Assembly: GCF_002161355.1 (NCBI RefSeq)
Contig: NZ_NFHL01000002.1
Span: 310,001 to 374,000 of the forward strand
Source of the DNA: Lachnoclostridium sp. An76
Lineage (GTDB): Bacteria; Bacillota; Clostridia; Lachnospirales; Lachnospiraceae
DNA: 64,000 bases
Direction: 5' to 3'
In this document: positions 26,280 to 31,340 of the stretch, piece after piece
Layout: each line of letters starts with the position of its first letter
How positions within the stretch are numbered: position 1 is the first letter of the stretch
Program-made: the position numbers and the translations under genes
The notes under the pieces: generated by a model
Told to the model about the DNA's origin: nothing
Database searches by the model: none
The model's input: only the letters and a program-made list of their open reading frames with translations

Positions 26280-27452
26280 TTACTCTTGCTCTTTCCTGAG
26301 CTTCCGGATAAAGTTCTCCAGACGCCCGAGCGCTTCTTTCAGGTCTTCCAGGGAATATGCGTAGGAGATCCTTAAAAATCCCTCCCCGCACTCGCCGAAG
26401 GCAGTTCCCGGGACGACCGCCACTTTCTCTTCTTCCAGGAGTCTTGTGGCGAACTCCTCCGAGGACATGCCGAATTCCCGGATGCTCGGGAATACATAGA
26501 ACGCGCCGAAGGGCTCGAAGCACTCCAGCCCCATCCTTGCGAACTCATGCATAAGGAAGCGTCTCCTCTGGTCGTAGGACTTCCGCATCTCCTCCACTTC
26601 ATCTTCACAGTTCCTCAGGCCTTCCACCGCCGCGTACTGGCTGTTCGTCGGCGCGCACATGATGGCGAACTGATGGAGCTTTGTCATCTGCTCAATGAGA
26701 GCCTTCGGTCCGCAGCAGTACCCGAGCCTCCACCCGGTCATTGCGAAGCCTTTGGAGAACCCGTTGATCACCAGCGTCCTCTCCCGCATTCCCGGAAGAG
26801 ACGCGATGGATACGTGCTGTGTGCCGTAGGTGAGCTCTGAGTAGATCTCGTCGGACATGACATAGAGGTCATGCTCTTTTACGAATTCCGCCACAGGCTC
26901 CAGATCCTCTTTTGTCATGATCGAGCCTGTCGGATTGTTCGGGAACGGCATGATCAGGATCTTTGTCCGCTCCGTCGTATATTTTTCCAGATCCTCCACT
27001 GTGAGCTTGAACTCATTTTCCGCCTGGAGCGGCACTACCACGGGCACGCCGTCCGCCATGACCGTGCACGGCAGGTAGGACACATAGCTGGGCTGCGGGA
27101 TCAGCACTTCGTCCCCCGGATCCAGCATGCACCTAAGCCCCACATCGATGGCCTCACTCCCGCCGACTGTGATCAAAGTCTCTTTGAGCGGATCGTACGA
27201 GACGTGGATCTTGCGCTCCAGATAACGGCAGATCTCCTGCCTCAGTTCCTTTAAGCCTGCATTGGATGTATAAAATGTCTTGCCTTTTTCAAGTGTAAAG
27301 ATGCCTTCCTCCCGGATCCGCCACGGCGTGTCAAAGTCCGGTTCCCCCACTCCCAGGGAGATCGCGTCCTTCATCTCATTTGCCACGTCGAAGAACTTGC
27401 GGATCCCGGAAGGCTGTATATCAACGATCTTTTTTGATAATGGATTTCTCAT
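26280..27452 (-). CDS. Class I pyridoxal-phosphate aminotransferase (aspartate/aromatic type)
   Basis: The protein has 390 residues. Family motifs seen are GVGEPDFDTP near 34-43, YTSNAGLKELRQEI, MPFPNNPTGSI (Asn near 173), SDEIYSELTYG (Asp 201) and NGFSKGFAMTGWRLGY with the PLP lysine K234. It likely transfers amino groups between an amino acid and 2-oxoglutarate; the exact amino acid cannot be told. The start codon shares one base with the stop of the Lrp-like regulator upstream, so the two are made together and the regulator may sense its substrate. Confidence 0.92.
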   Translation of the reverse strand: MRNPLSKKIVDIQPSGIRKFFDVANEMKDAISLGVGEPDFDTPWRIREEGIFTLEKGKTFYTSNAGLKELRQEICRYLERKIHVSYDPLKETLITVGGSEAIDVGLRCMLDPGDEVLIPQPSYVSYLPCTVMADGVPVVVPLQAENEFKLTVEDLEKYTTERTKILIMPFPNNPTGSIMTKEDLEPVAEFVKEHDLYVMSDEIYSELTYGTQHVSIASLPGMRERTLVINGFSKGFAMTGWRLGYCCGPKALIEQMTKLHQFAIMCAPTNSQYAAVEGLRNCEDEVEEMRKSYDQRRRFLMHEFARMGLECFEPFGAFYVFPSIREFGMSSEEFATRLLEEEKVAVVPGTAFGECGEGFLRISYAYSLEDLKEALGRLENFIRKLRKEQE

Positions 27453-27955
27453 TACAGTGTCACCGATATCCTTTCTGATTCTTTCTTCGTCACCATGACC
27501 GTGCCGTGGTCCTTATATTTCTTCAGTATAAAATGCGTCGCCGTGCTCAGGACCCCGTCCAGCGGGGACAGCTTCTCTGACACGAAGCGCGAAACTTCTT
27601 TCAGTGTCTTCCCTTCCATTGTCACCAGCAGATCATAGCTGCCGGAGATCAGGTACACCGCATATACCTCCGGGTAATTGTAGAGGCGCTCCGCGATCCG
27701 GTCGAAACCTCTGTCCCTCTGGGGTGTGACGCGCACTTCGATCAGCGCGGTCACCGTCTCGACGCCGGTCTTGTCCCAGTCGATCAGTGTGTGGTAGCCG
27801 CAGATGATCTTTTCCTTCTCCATCTCCGCCATCTCGTTCGCCACATCTGCCTCTTCCGCTCCCAGCAGGACCGCCAGTTCCCCGAGGTCTACCCGGCTGT
27901 GTTTCTCGATATATTTCAGGATCTCAATCCTGAGGGCTTCTTTTTTTTCATTCAT
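27452..27955 (-). CDS. Lrp/AsnC-family transcription regulator
   Basis: The protein has 167 residues. The N-terminal winged helix (LRIEILKYIEKHSRVDLGELAVLLG) is followed by the ligand-binding RAM domain (TALIEVRVTPQRDRGFDRIAERL, YLISGSYDLLVTMEGK). The HTH segment diverges from classic Lrp (EEADVANEMAEME), as in many archaeal-like or Clostridia forms. It probably controls this operon or the neighbouring aminotransferase in answer to an amino acid. GGGAGG precedes the start. Confidence 0.88.
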   Translation of the reverse strand: MNEKKEALRIEILKYIEKHSRVDLGELAVLLGAEEADVANEMAEMEKEKIICGYHTLIDWDKTGVETVTALIEVRVTPQRDRGFDRIAERLYNYPEVYAVYLISGSYDLLVTMEGKTLKEVSRFVSEKLSPLDGVLSTATHFILKKYKDHGTVMVTKKESERISVTL

Positions 27956-28013
27956 AGCAATTCCTCCCGCATTCTGTTTTTCTGTAACTTTTATACTGAT
28001 CTTTCCTGTTTCT

Positions 28014-29066
28014 CTATTTTCTCTGTCTTGATCTCATCTGATCCTGTTTCCGCCGCGCCTGCCAGAGCTCCAGCTCATCCGGCGCCGGCCTGTCCAGATA
28101 TCTTACTTCTTCTCCGCTTGTGATCACACGCGCGTTCTGCGCCTTTATGACCCCAAGCCTGACGGCTCGCGCCCCCGCCTTTTCCAGGATCTCTATCACA
28201 CGCCCGGCATCCTCTGTCACGATGAGGAAGCTTCCGGACGACGCCATCTGGTACGGGTTCAGCCGGTAGAACTCACAGATCTCCACAGTCTCCTGCCGGA
28301 TGCTGATGGATGACATATCCGCCTCAAACCCGGTGCGCAGCGTCTCCGCCATCTCCCACAGCGCCGCCAGGATCCCGCCGCTCCCCGCCTGGAAGACCGC
28401 CGTAATATCCGGCATGCCTGCCGCCCGGTCTGACCCGCACTCCTTCTCCCGGAAGAGCGCGAGGATCTGCCCCGGCGTCACCAGCCTGTCAGACAGTTCG
28501 CCCGCCTTTCTCAGAAAATCCGGGATAAACCGGGTTCCGGGCTCATCTCCCGCCTCGTCCAGGATCCGGAGCATCCCTTCCAGCCCGGCGTATCCGCAGA
28601 ATACGATTTCCTGCCCTGCTGCAGGCTTCCGGATCCCTATCCTGCCGTCCTTTCCCGCCGCAGCCGCAAAGACGATGATCCGCTCCGCCGCGCAGGATGT
28701 CTCCCCCTGAAACGCCGTCACCTGGAGCCCCATCCTGTCACAGGCTTCCTCAACGCCCGCTGCGACGGCCTTCAGATCCTCTTCCTCCGCCTCCGGCGGG
28801 AACAGGACCCGCACGGATACGCAGGATGCGGCCACACCTTTTGCCGCCAGCTCCCCTGCCGCGTGCAGGACCGCATAATATCCGGTACGCGCGGAATCCC
28901 CCGCAGCATGGGCGTCTGCCCACAAAAAGGAACCTCCGCTTTCATCCGCGATGCCGGAACACTCCTCCCAGGGCGACGGCCCGAACAGCACGTCTTTCCC
29001 TCTGTCATGCAGTTGTCTCCTGACAGAACGCTGCCATGCGGTCTGTGTCAGTCTGCCGTATCTCAT
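28014..29066 (-). CDS. AIR synthase-like (PurM/HypE fold) protein
   Basis: The protein has 350 residues from the ATG at 29066. It has a PurM-type layout: N-terminal half with GKDVLFGPSPWEECSGI, DSARTGYYAVLHAAGELAAKG and CVSVRVLFPPEAEEE; C-terminal half with QEIVFCGYAGLEGML and PYQMASSGSFLIVTEDAG. This resembles HypE-like hydrogenase maturation factors, but no hydrogenase genes are near and the HypE C-terminal Cys is missing. ATP-dependent chemistry on a small molecule is likely from the fold; the substrate is unknown. The start is uncertain because an upstream in-frame codon exists at 29144 and the ribosome site sits very close. Confidence 0.75.
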   Translation of the reverse strand: MRYGRLTQTAWQRSVRRQLHDRGKDVLFGPSPWEECSGIADESGGSFLWADAHAAGDSARTGYYAVLHAAGELAAKGVAASCVSVRVLFPPEAEEEDLKAVAAGVEEACDRMGLQVTAFQGETSCAAERIIVFAAAAGKDGRIGIRKPAAGQEIVFCGYAGLEGMLRILDEAGDEPGTRFIPDFLRKAGELSDRLVTPGQILALFREKECGSDRAAGMPDITAVFQAGSGGILAALWEMAETLRTGFEADMSSISIRQETVEICEFYRLNPYQMASSGSFLIVTEDAGRVIEILEKAGARAVRLGVIKAQNARVITSGEEVRYLDRPAPDELELWQARRKQDQMRSRQRK

Positions 29067-29140
29067 CTCTCCGCTGCCTTTCTTTACTGCCCTCACTGCC
29101 TGCCCTGTGTCTTTCCAGGCTCCGTCATTTCCCCATGTCC

Positions 29141-29242
29141 TCACGCGATATACGGAAGGACCATAGTCAGCACCATTGCCGCCACGATCACGATGATAAT
29201 GGCTGATATGATGCGCCTGACTCTTTTATCATAAAAATTCAT
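29141..29242 (-). CDS. 33-residue single-span membrane protein
   Basis: MNFYDKRVRRI opens a short positively charged head, then one membrane span (IISAIIIVIVAAMVLTMVL) and the end PYIA. AAAGGAG, which overlaps the stop codon of the radical SAM gene, lies 9 bases before the ATG. Such a good ribosome site and clean topology (charged inside, hydrophobic span) support a real gene. No function is known to me. It may anchor or assist one of the two neighbouring proteins. Confidence 0.75.
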   Translation of the reverse strand: MNFYDKRVRRIISAIIIVIVAAMVLTMVLPYIA

Positions 29243-29248
29243 GGATCT

Positions 29249-30964
29249 TTACTCCTTTATTTCGTAAACTGCCGCGTCTCCTGTAAGGGGATCCCTCTTT
29301 CTGTAATCAAACAGGAGGAGTTTCCCGCCCAGCCGCTCCAGATGGGTCATCTTCCGCATCTGCCTGCCGTCATATCCTTCATATCCTTTCAGATAGCGGC
29401 GCTCCTGCGCTTCTTTTTTATAGAACGTGGCAGCCTCTTCCTTGTCTGTCTGCCCCGCCCCGAGAAACGCGGGCCGGTTTTTCACATTATCCCTCAAATA
29501 CAGGTCCAATGTCAACCACTCTGTAAATTCTTTCTTCTCCGCCTCATCCGCCAGATAATGTCCGGCAAACCGGCTGAGGATCTCATAGCGCGCGAGACGG
29601 GAGTGCTGTACTCCCAGGAGTCCGTTTTCTTCATAATATCCCGCCAGCGCCTCATACATGGAAAACGGCGTCCCGAACTTTCCGAGCAGGTATTCCATTG
29701 TATGCCGGAACTGCCCGCTGTTATAATAGACTTCTGTCATTTCTTCCACTCGTTTCAGCCAGATGATTTCCCCATATGACAGCCACTTTGTCCTCAGCAC
29801 CTCATAGGGCGGGCGGTCCTGATACAGGAGCCCGTACTCCTCTGTCCGCTCATGCATAAGAGAGCCTTTGAGCACTTTCAAAAAGCCGAGCTGGAGCTGC
29901 TCCGGCTTCATGGCGTACACCGTGTCAAAAGACCGCGCGAAGCTCTCGTATCCCTCAAAGGGCAGCCCCGCGATCAGGTCCAGATGCTGATGCACATTCC
30001 TGCCCTCACGGATCCGCTCCACGCTCTCCCTGACCCGTTCCAGATCCATGGTCCGCCTGATCTCCCTGAGGGTGTCCCTGTTCACGGACTGCACGCCGAT
30101 CTCCAACTGGATCAGCCCCGGGCGCATACTCCGGATCAGCCGGATCTCATCCTCGTTCAGCAGGTCCGCAGCCACCTCGAAATGGAAGTTCGTGATCCCT
30201 CTGTCATGTTCTTTAATATAGGTCCACACTTCCATGGCATGGTCATGGCGGCAGTTAAATGTCCGGTCCACAAATTTCACCTGCGGGACTTCATGGTCAA
30301 TAAAAAACTGCAGCTCTTCCTTCACCACGCCAATGTCCCGGAACCGCAGGCATTTATCTACGGACGACAGGCAGTAACTGCACGAGAACGGGCATCCCCT
30401 GCTCGACTCATAGTAAATGATGCGGTTTTTAAAAGCCCCGATATGGCCATAGGCGAACGGCACGCTGCTCAGGTCCAGGACAGGGCGCAGCGGGTTCTCC
30501 CGGATCTCCCCGCTTTCGTCCCGGTAAACGATGCCTTTTATTTCTGAAAGATCCCCCTCTCTGTCCCCGCGGCCCTGCTGTTCCCAGTACCCCATCAGCT
30601 CCAGGAAGGTTGCTTCCCCCTCCCCGCACATGACGCCTGCCACGCCGGGATATCTCCGCAGGGCATCCGCCGCGTCATAGGACACCTCGGGTCCTCCCAG
30701 CCAGATCTGTGTATGAGGCAGGATCTTCGGCACTTCCGCCGCGATCTGTCCCACATACGGGATATTCCACAGATAGCAGGAAAGACACAGCACATCCGGC
30801 TGCCTTAAATAAATATCCGTCAATATGTCATCGATCGTCTGATTGATCGTATATTCTGCGATCTCTGTCTCCCCGCAGTACTCCTGCGCGTACGCCCGCA
30901 GGCTGTACACCGCCAGATTAGAGTGGATATATTTGGCGTTCACCGCCGCTAAAAGCACTTTCAT
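29249..30964 (-). CDS. B12-binding-domain radical SAM protein (DUF4080-type C-terminus)
   Basis: The protein has 571 residues from the ATG at 30964 (GGAG 8 bases upstream). The N-terminal half (MKVLLAAVNAKYIHSN, then LCLSCYLWNIPYVGQIA, WLGGPEVSYDA, GEGEATFLEL) is a cobalamin-binding-like Rossmann domain. The radical SAM motif SSRGCPFSCSYC puts the cluster ligands at C191, C195 and C198. QLEIGVQSVN and DLIAGLPFEGY follow. The C-terminal 200 residues have the layout of the DUF4080 family. The reaction is not known; family members are common in anaerobic Clostridia. Confidence 0.88.
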   Translation of the reverse strand: MKVLLAAVNAKYIHSNLAVYSLRAYAQEYCGETEIAEYTINQTIDDILTDIYLRQPDVLCLSCYLWNIPYVGQIAAEVPKILPHTQIWLGGPEVSYDAADALRRYPGVAGVMCGEGEATFLELMGYWEQQGRGDREGDLSEIKGIVYRDESGEIRENPLRPVLDLSSVPFAYGHIGAFKNRIIYYESSRGCPFSCSYCLSSVDKCLRFRDIGVVKEELQFFIDHEVPQVKFVDRTFNCRHDHAMEVWTYIKEHDRGITNFHFEVAADLLNEDEIRLIRSMRPGLIQLEIGVQSVNRDTLREIRRTMDLERVRESVERIREGRNVHQHLDLIAGLPFEGYESFARSFDTVYAMKPEQLQLGFLKVLKGSLMHERTEEYGLLYQDRPPYEVLRTKWLSYGEIIWLKRVEEMTEVYYNSGQFRHTMEYLLGKFGTPFSMYEALAGYYEENGLLGVQHSRLARYEILSRFAGHYLADEAEKKEFTEWLTLDLYLRDNVKNRPAFLGAGQTDKEEAATFYKKEAQERRYLKGYEGYDGRQMRKMTHLERLGGKLLLFDYRKRDPLTGDAAVYEIKE

Positions 30965-30997
30965 TCCCAAAGCTCCGTTTCTTTCGTCATACATGAG

Positions 30998-31076: not shown

Positions 31077-31340
31077 ACTCGTGCAGCCGGGGTGTTAGCG
31101 GTACCTTGTACCTGCAATCCGCTATAGCAGGGGTGATATTGCGCAGAGGGCGGCAGCCGGCAGAGCTGCCCCCGGAAAGTGGCGTTGATGTCCGGGTCTC
31201 ACGCGACGGGAACCTGTGAACCGTGTCAGGCCGGGAACGGAGCAGCACTAAGCAGGAGCTCCCGGGTGCCGTGAGGGTGCCTGGGCTGAGTTAACTGCCG
31301 GGGTAACGTCTGTTGGCCAAGTTCGAAGCGCAATGCACGC
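31077..31340 (+). ncRNA. ffs: Signal recognition particle RNA, large bacterial type
   Basis: The conserved domain IV stem is clear: GTGAACCGTGTCAGGCCGGG, then AACGGAGCAGCACTAAGC, with the GGAA/ACGGAGCAGC Ffh-binding loop. The ends pair (CGTGCA at 31080-31085 with TGCACG at 31334-31339). The 5' part (GGTGTTAGCGGTACC, CTGCAATCCGC) matches the Alu-type domain of Bacillus/Clostridia 6S-class SRP RNAs, so the RNA is about 260 bases rather than the 4.5S form. A strong promoter precedes it and a terminator follows. Confidence 0.93.

Follow-up and report, generated by a model that had tools for sequence, protein, structure and literature searches.

The window, a stretch of 64,000 nucleotides, carries a 33-aa ORF between the genes for a B12-binding radical SAM (rSAM) protein and an AIRS/HypE-like protein, all on the same strand (Table 1). 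The encoded protein is MNFYDKRVRRIISAIIIVIVAAMVLTMVLPYIA. A first-pass annotation had described this frame as a 33-residue membrane protein with a strong ribosome site, and the ORF, its ATG, and an AAGGAG 9 nt upstream are all found. The Shine-Dalgarno sequence had also been said to overlap the stop codon of the rSAM gene; instead it abuts it, with AAGGAG directly preceding the TAA at 29249-29251. The charged head and single span are likewise present, with a head charge of +3 and a mean Kyte-Doolittle value of 3.11 for residues 11-29, and by the positive-inside rule the protein would be oriented N-in. No Pfam or NCBIfam model reaches the protein over its cut-off, in keeping with the earlier remark that such a gene is easily missed.

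The same build recurs wherever the frame was read. The head charge is at least 2 in all 111 loci, a strong span is found in every one, and the tail lacks K or R in 105 of the 111. A Shine-Dalgarno match of at least 4 nt occurs in 107 of the 111 loci, a count to be read with the fact that starts were picked partly by this very signal. The start is ATG in 99 of the 111, and the length is 33-35 aa in 84. Genome G257 is present twice in this set (L070 and L136), L141 was given a wrong, over-long start, and L076 yielded no frame.

Table 1. Features of the window in and around the 33-aa ORF
Feature	Position	Strand	Remarks
B12-binding radical SAM protein with DUF4080	29249..30994	-	Upstream neighbour, not obligatory
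Promoter-like TTGACA-18-GATAAT	29486..29515	-	Inside 3′ part of rSAM, ~240 nt upstream of ORF
Shine-Dalgarno AAGGAG	29252..29257	-	Inside last two rSAM codons, 9 nt from ORF ATG
33-aa ORF, predicted bitopic membrane protein	29141..29242	-	ATG start; head MNFYDKRVRR, span from about residue 11
AIRS/HypE-like protein	28014..29144	-	Downstream neighbour; GTG start overlaps ORF stop
Lrp/AsnC-type regulator	27452..27955	-	Same conserved cluster
Class I/II aminotransferase	26280..27452	-	Same conserved cluster

The window is taken to come from the Lachnospiraceae because the closest named relative of its rSAM protein (96% identity) belongs to Candidatus Mediterraneibacter tabaqchaliae (L033) and the other named matches are largely from this family. 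A 73-row profile of the ORF family matches 277 of 299 Lachnospiraceae genomes, one per genus, at E ≤ 1e-3. By the authors' tally of the result table, 249 of the 299 match at E ≤ 1e-6, and a single match is present in 253 of the 277 ORF-bearing genomes. Used alone as the query, the window protein hits 206 of the 299 at E ≤ 1. The profile has no match at E ≤ 1e-3 in the other 22 genomes; a profile search of short frames in 20 regions from 17 of these recovered three divergent members before VanW (G004, G070, and G118). Six VanW-AIRS loci had no ORF detectable by this short-frame search, and thus the ORF is not indispensable.

Substitutions in the frame are mostly silent. Synonymous and non-synonymous changes number 11 and 2 between the window and L031, 9 and 3 between the window and L032, and 1 and 0 between the window and L033. 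The dN/dS values, rough because only 33 codons are compared, range from 0 to 0.17 among pairs of these four sequences and reach 0.34 in wider pairs, in many of which dS is saturated. The DNA 3′ of the ORF stop diverges much more than the ORF itself when the window is compared with L031 or L032. The conservation of the ORF is far beyond chance, and the frame looks like a real, selected gene, mostly single-copy, in most of the sampled Lachnospiraceae genera. The first-pass annotation had held that such a gene should recur as a conserved frame at the same place in relatives with few non-synonymous changes, and this pattern is what the family genomes and the close pairs display.

The surroundings of the ORF were compared in 90 loci, one per genus, which had been selected because they matched the ORF. 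On the downstream side, the first gene that could be identified is VanW in 72 loci and the AIRS-like gene in 17, while one locus has none; on the upstream side, 74 have an rSAM and/or endonuclease III gene no more than about 2 kb away. The place of the ORF is thus conserved, as the first-pass annotation had it. Long loci from 15 chosen genomes give the order tadA - rSAM(DUF4080) - nth (endonuclease III) - exonuclease - ORF - VanW - AIRS-like - Lrp - aminotransferase - methyltransferase, with family names confirmed for one representative each of VanW, endonuclease III, and exonuclease. The full order is found in L166, and genes are missing in the others. The AIRS-like gene is downstream in 15 of the 15 long loci and VanW in 10, although some of these loci were picked because AIRS followed. 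In the window, the rSAM and AIRS-like genes flank the ORF directly, from which we infer that this locus has lost the intervening genes seen elsewhere. VanW also follows the ORF outside the family, in L222 and L232 from two further families of the order.

In L031 and L033, the GTG overlapping the ORF stop leads into no more than a short frame, and the true start of the AIRS-like protein is probably further in; coupling of the ORF to this gene through the GTGA overlap was dropped on these grounds. As a separate observation, the AIRS/HypE-like gene, the Lrp-type regulator, and the aminotransferase (26280-29144 in the window) are found as a group in several long loci. A bacterial large SRP RNA (RF01854, 187.7 bits) lies at 31079-31340 on the forward strand, divergent from the rSAM-ORF-AIRS genes.

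In the window clade, the promoter-like site within the rSAM gene coincides with that gene's peak of synonymous-codon conservation. The seven window-clade loci inspected share both hexamers exactly and show a few changes in the spacer, while the rSAM proteins of these loci are as low as 69% identical to that of the window. In six sequences, the codon identity of residue-identical pairs at this site is 0.92, the highest of 436 15-codon windows across the rSAM gene (mean 0.58, sd 0.09). With four diverged rSAM sequences the stretch again ranks first (0.900), and codons 62-63 follow close behind (0.845). The motif is absent from 12 other rSAM genes that were aligned. Across the family, 31 of 96 loci have a promoter-like site with at least 10 of 12 matches in the 320 nt before the ORF, and seven of these belong to the window clade alone. 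A control stretch, largely coding and perhaps of another composition, gave such a site in 4 of 96 cases; among 480 shuffles, which preserve dinucleotides only roughly, the rate was 4.8%. A terminator-like site follows the ORF in one of 97 loci and is absent in 96. The ORF thus seems to head a unit that includes the genes downstream of it. Since terminator-like sites are as rare upstream (1 of 96 loci), read-through from the upstream genes is possible.

Conservation within the protein is strongest in the A-M-V motif of the span and in the N, F, and K-K/R-R of the head, for which the family consensus is NF-x-N/D-K-K-x-R/K-R/K. The M of the motif is present in 71 of the 73 alignment rows, the residue preceding it is A, S, T, or C in all 73, and the residue three positions after it is P, T, G, S, or A, again in all 73. 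The head N is found in 60 of the 73 rows and the second head K in 62. Conservation of both the A-M-V face and the head suggests that the helix packs through a particular face and that the head too is specific, so that the protein would be more than a generic anchor.

The preferred reading, for which the chances seem evenly balanced, is that the ORF encodes a 33-35-aa N-in miniprotein whose A-M-V-x-(T/P) face packs against a larger membrane partner encoded elsewhere. The basic head would stay in the cytoplasm, and the small-residue helix face, A-M-V-x-(T/P/G/S/A), would pack onto a membrane helix of this partner. The miniprotein could then stabilise or regulate the larger protein, or anchor a cytosolic one, in the manner of Prli42, AcrZ, or MgrB. 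In the window clade, the promoter inside rSAM probably makes the ORF the first gene of its own transcript. On this reading the ORF product would be a regulatory or anchoring microprotein. Small membrane proteins of the AcrZ, MgrB, and KdpF type bind larger ones (PMC11539335), and the likeness of the 33-aa protein to these lies in the predicted way of working.

Among NCBIfam models, Prli42 (NF033880) matches the most members, 23 of 73 at E ≤ 1 with a best value of 2.8e-5. Prli42 is similar in having about 31 aa, a basic head, one span, and a comparable A/I-M-I/V-x-S/T stretch. That the ORF is a true distant homologue of Prli42, serving as a cytosol-facing anchor for a signalling complex, overlaps with the preferred reading and is possible, if on the unlikely side. 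In its favour, profile-profile comparison of the two families gives an E of 1.5e-4 over 20 columns, and the mean cross-scores exceed those of all 100 shuffles in both directions; the Prli42 alignment used here consists of seven of the eight loci over cut-off found in a search of 299 phylum genomes. However, the profile-profile probability is 51%, and the single best cross-score is equalled in 3 of 100 shuffles in one direction. The highest score among the members with bits shown is 23.8 against a cut-off of 27.5 bits, the window protein scores 9.7 bits, and none of 40 family genomes contains a match over the cut-off. Furthermore, the unrelated Pfam family DUF2116 also matches 23 of the 73 members at E ≤ 1 (best 0.0099), which indicates that weak matches of hydrophobic spans are common. 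A third family, DUF4044 (PF13253), likewise of small membrane proteins, matches 2 of the 73 members, with a best E of 0.014 that is not significant.

The genomic setting differs from that of Prli42 as well. No rSAM, endonuclease III, or VanW gene is recognisable by eye within about 1.5 kb on each side of the eight Prli42 loci. Membrane localisation of RsbR1 is reported to depend on Prli42, and growth under stress to be unchanged without it (PMC9840623). The window genome has a single match to PF01740 (STAS), which is SpoIIAA-like (109 bits against a cut-off of 114.75) and adjoins spIIAB and spore_sigF hits over cut-off, placing it in a SpoIIAA-SpoIIAB-SigF operon. Hence no stressosome (RsbR/RsbS) is evident in this genome from the PF01740 search. 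Given the scores under cut-off, the other neighbours, and the lack of an evident stressosome, and with a head consensus of its own, the ORF family is best filed as Prli42-like in build and not as a member of Prli42.

The preferred reading places the partner away from the locus, and it is here that the flanking genes have to be weighed. The first-pass annotation had suggested that the protein helps one of the two flanking enzymes at the membrane, and a membrane helper of the AIRS/HypE-like or rSAM enzyme would fit the constant AIRS-like gene of the long loci, selected in part for that gene. This proposal is improbable and the position of the ORF does not support it, though a link to the AIRS-like enzyme is conceivable. 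Of 17 genomes in which the ORF immediately precedes AIRS, 8 gave no match to the DUF4080 rSAM (E ≤ 1e-10), and in genome G005 this gene is about 1 Mb from the ORF. In addition, the six VanW-AIRS loci mentioned above have no detectable ORF, and the ORF frequently has a promoter-like site of its own.

An accessory role for the VanW-family envelope protein encoded just downstream is distinctly improbable, even though VanW is the usual next gene, also in the two other families of the order. VanW (PF04294) is found in 254 of the 299 family genomes and has no match in 45, the window genome (G000) included. The ORF (E ≤ 1e-3) is present in 236 of the 254 genomes with VanW versus 41 of the 45 without (Fisher p = 0.76), or in 213 versus 36 at the stricter E ≤ 1e-6 (p = 0.52); two ORF-negative and 25 VanW-negative genomes in this comparison were filled in from gaps in numbering. 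VanW as the main partner was dropped since co-occurrence is flat. Because of this flat co-occurrence and the failure to find rSAM in 8 of 17 genomes, neither VanW nor rSAM is an obligate partner of the ORF. This independence suggests that the partner is encoded elsewhere or is the AIRS-like protein.

Two further readings were considered. A leader ORF or translational coupler whose peptide is itself of no importance would suit a frame that precedes co-oriented genes without a terminator, but selection at the amino-acid level and the uniform topology make this very improbable, and it was dropped. Type I toxins are hydrophobic peptides of similar size with a basic head and a single span, but such an identity is barely credible and was dropped for a gene with a conserved same-strand chromosomal place in 277 of 299 genomes, which is no patchy or mobile distribution, and with no Rfam match at the ORF.

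In a search across the whole class, 65 of 381 genomes had a match. Many of these hits fall within long frames and probably arose by chance, as did most of those that another class-wide search gave outside the order. Short basic-head frames with the same pattern do occur in several other Clostridia families, beside other genes. A doubtful but conceivable extension would make the ORF the representative, in Lachnospirales, of a Prli42-like miniprotein superfamily spread across Clostridia and other classes of the phylum, which would have settled beside different genes from lineage to lineage and persisted where there is no stressosome. If so, the original role of the protein would be a general one in the membrane, and anchoring of the stressosome would have come later or only locally. 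If the link to Prli42 is real, the miniprotein is here separated from the stressosome, and its older function becomes testable in strains without one. With no Pfam or NCBIfam model over cut-off for a protein found in about nine-tenths of the sampled Lachnospiraceae genera, the core proteome of this dominant gut family has a gap.

Literature searches on small transmembrane proteins or small ORFs of Lachnospiraceae and on DUF4080 rSAM proteins returned nothing, and one on VanW-associated small proteins in Clostridia returned nothing on this family, which may nevertheless be listed in microbiome small-protein catalogues. In one other Clostridia family (L226, L234, L235, L236, and L238), similar short basic-head single-span frames are seen by eye near what seem to be the same neighbours.
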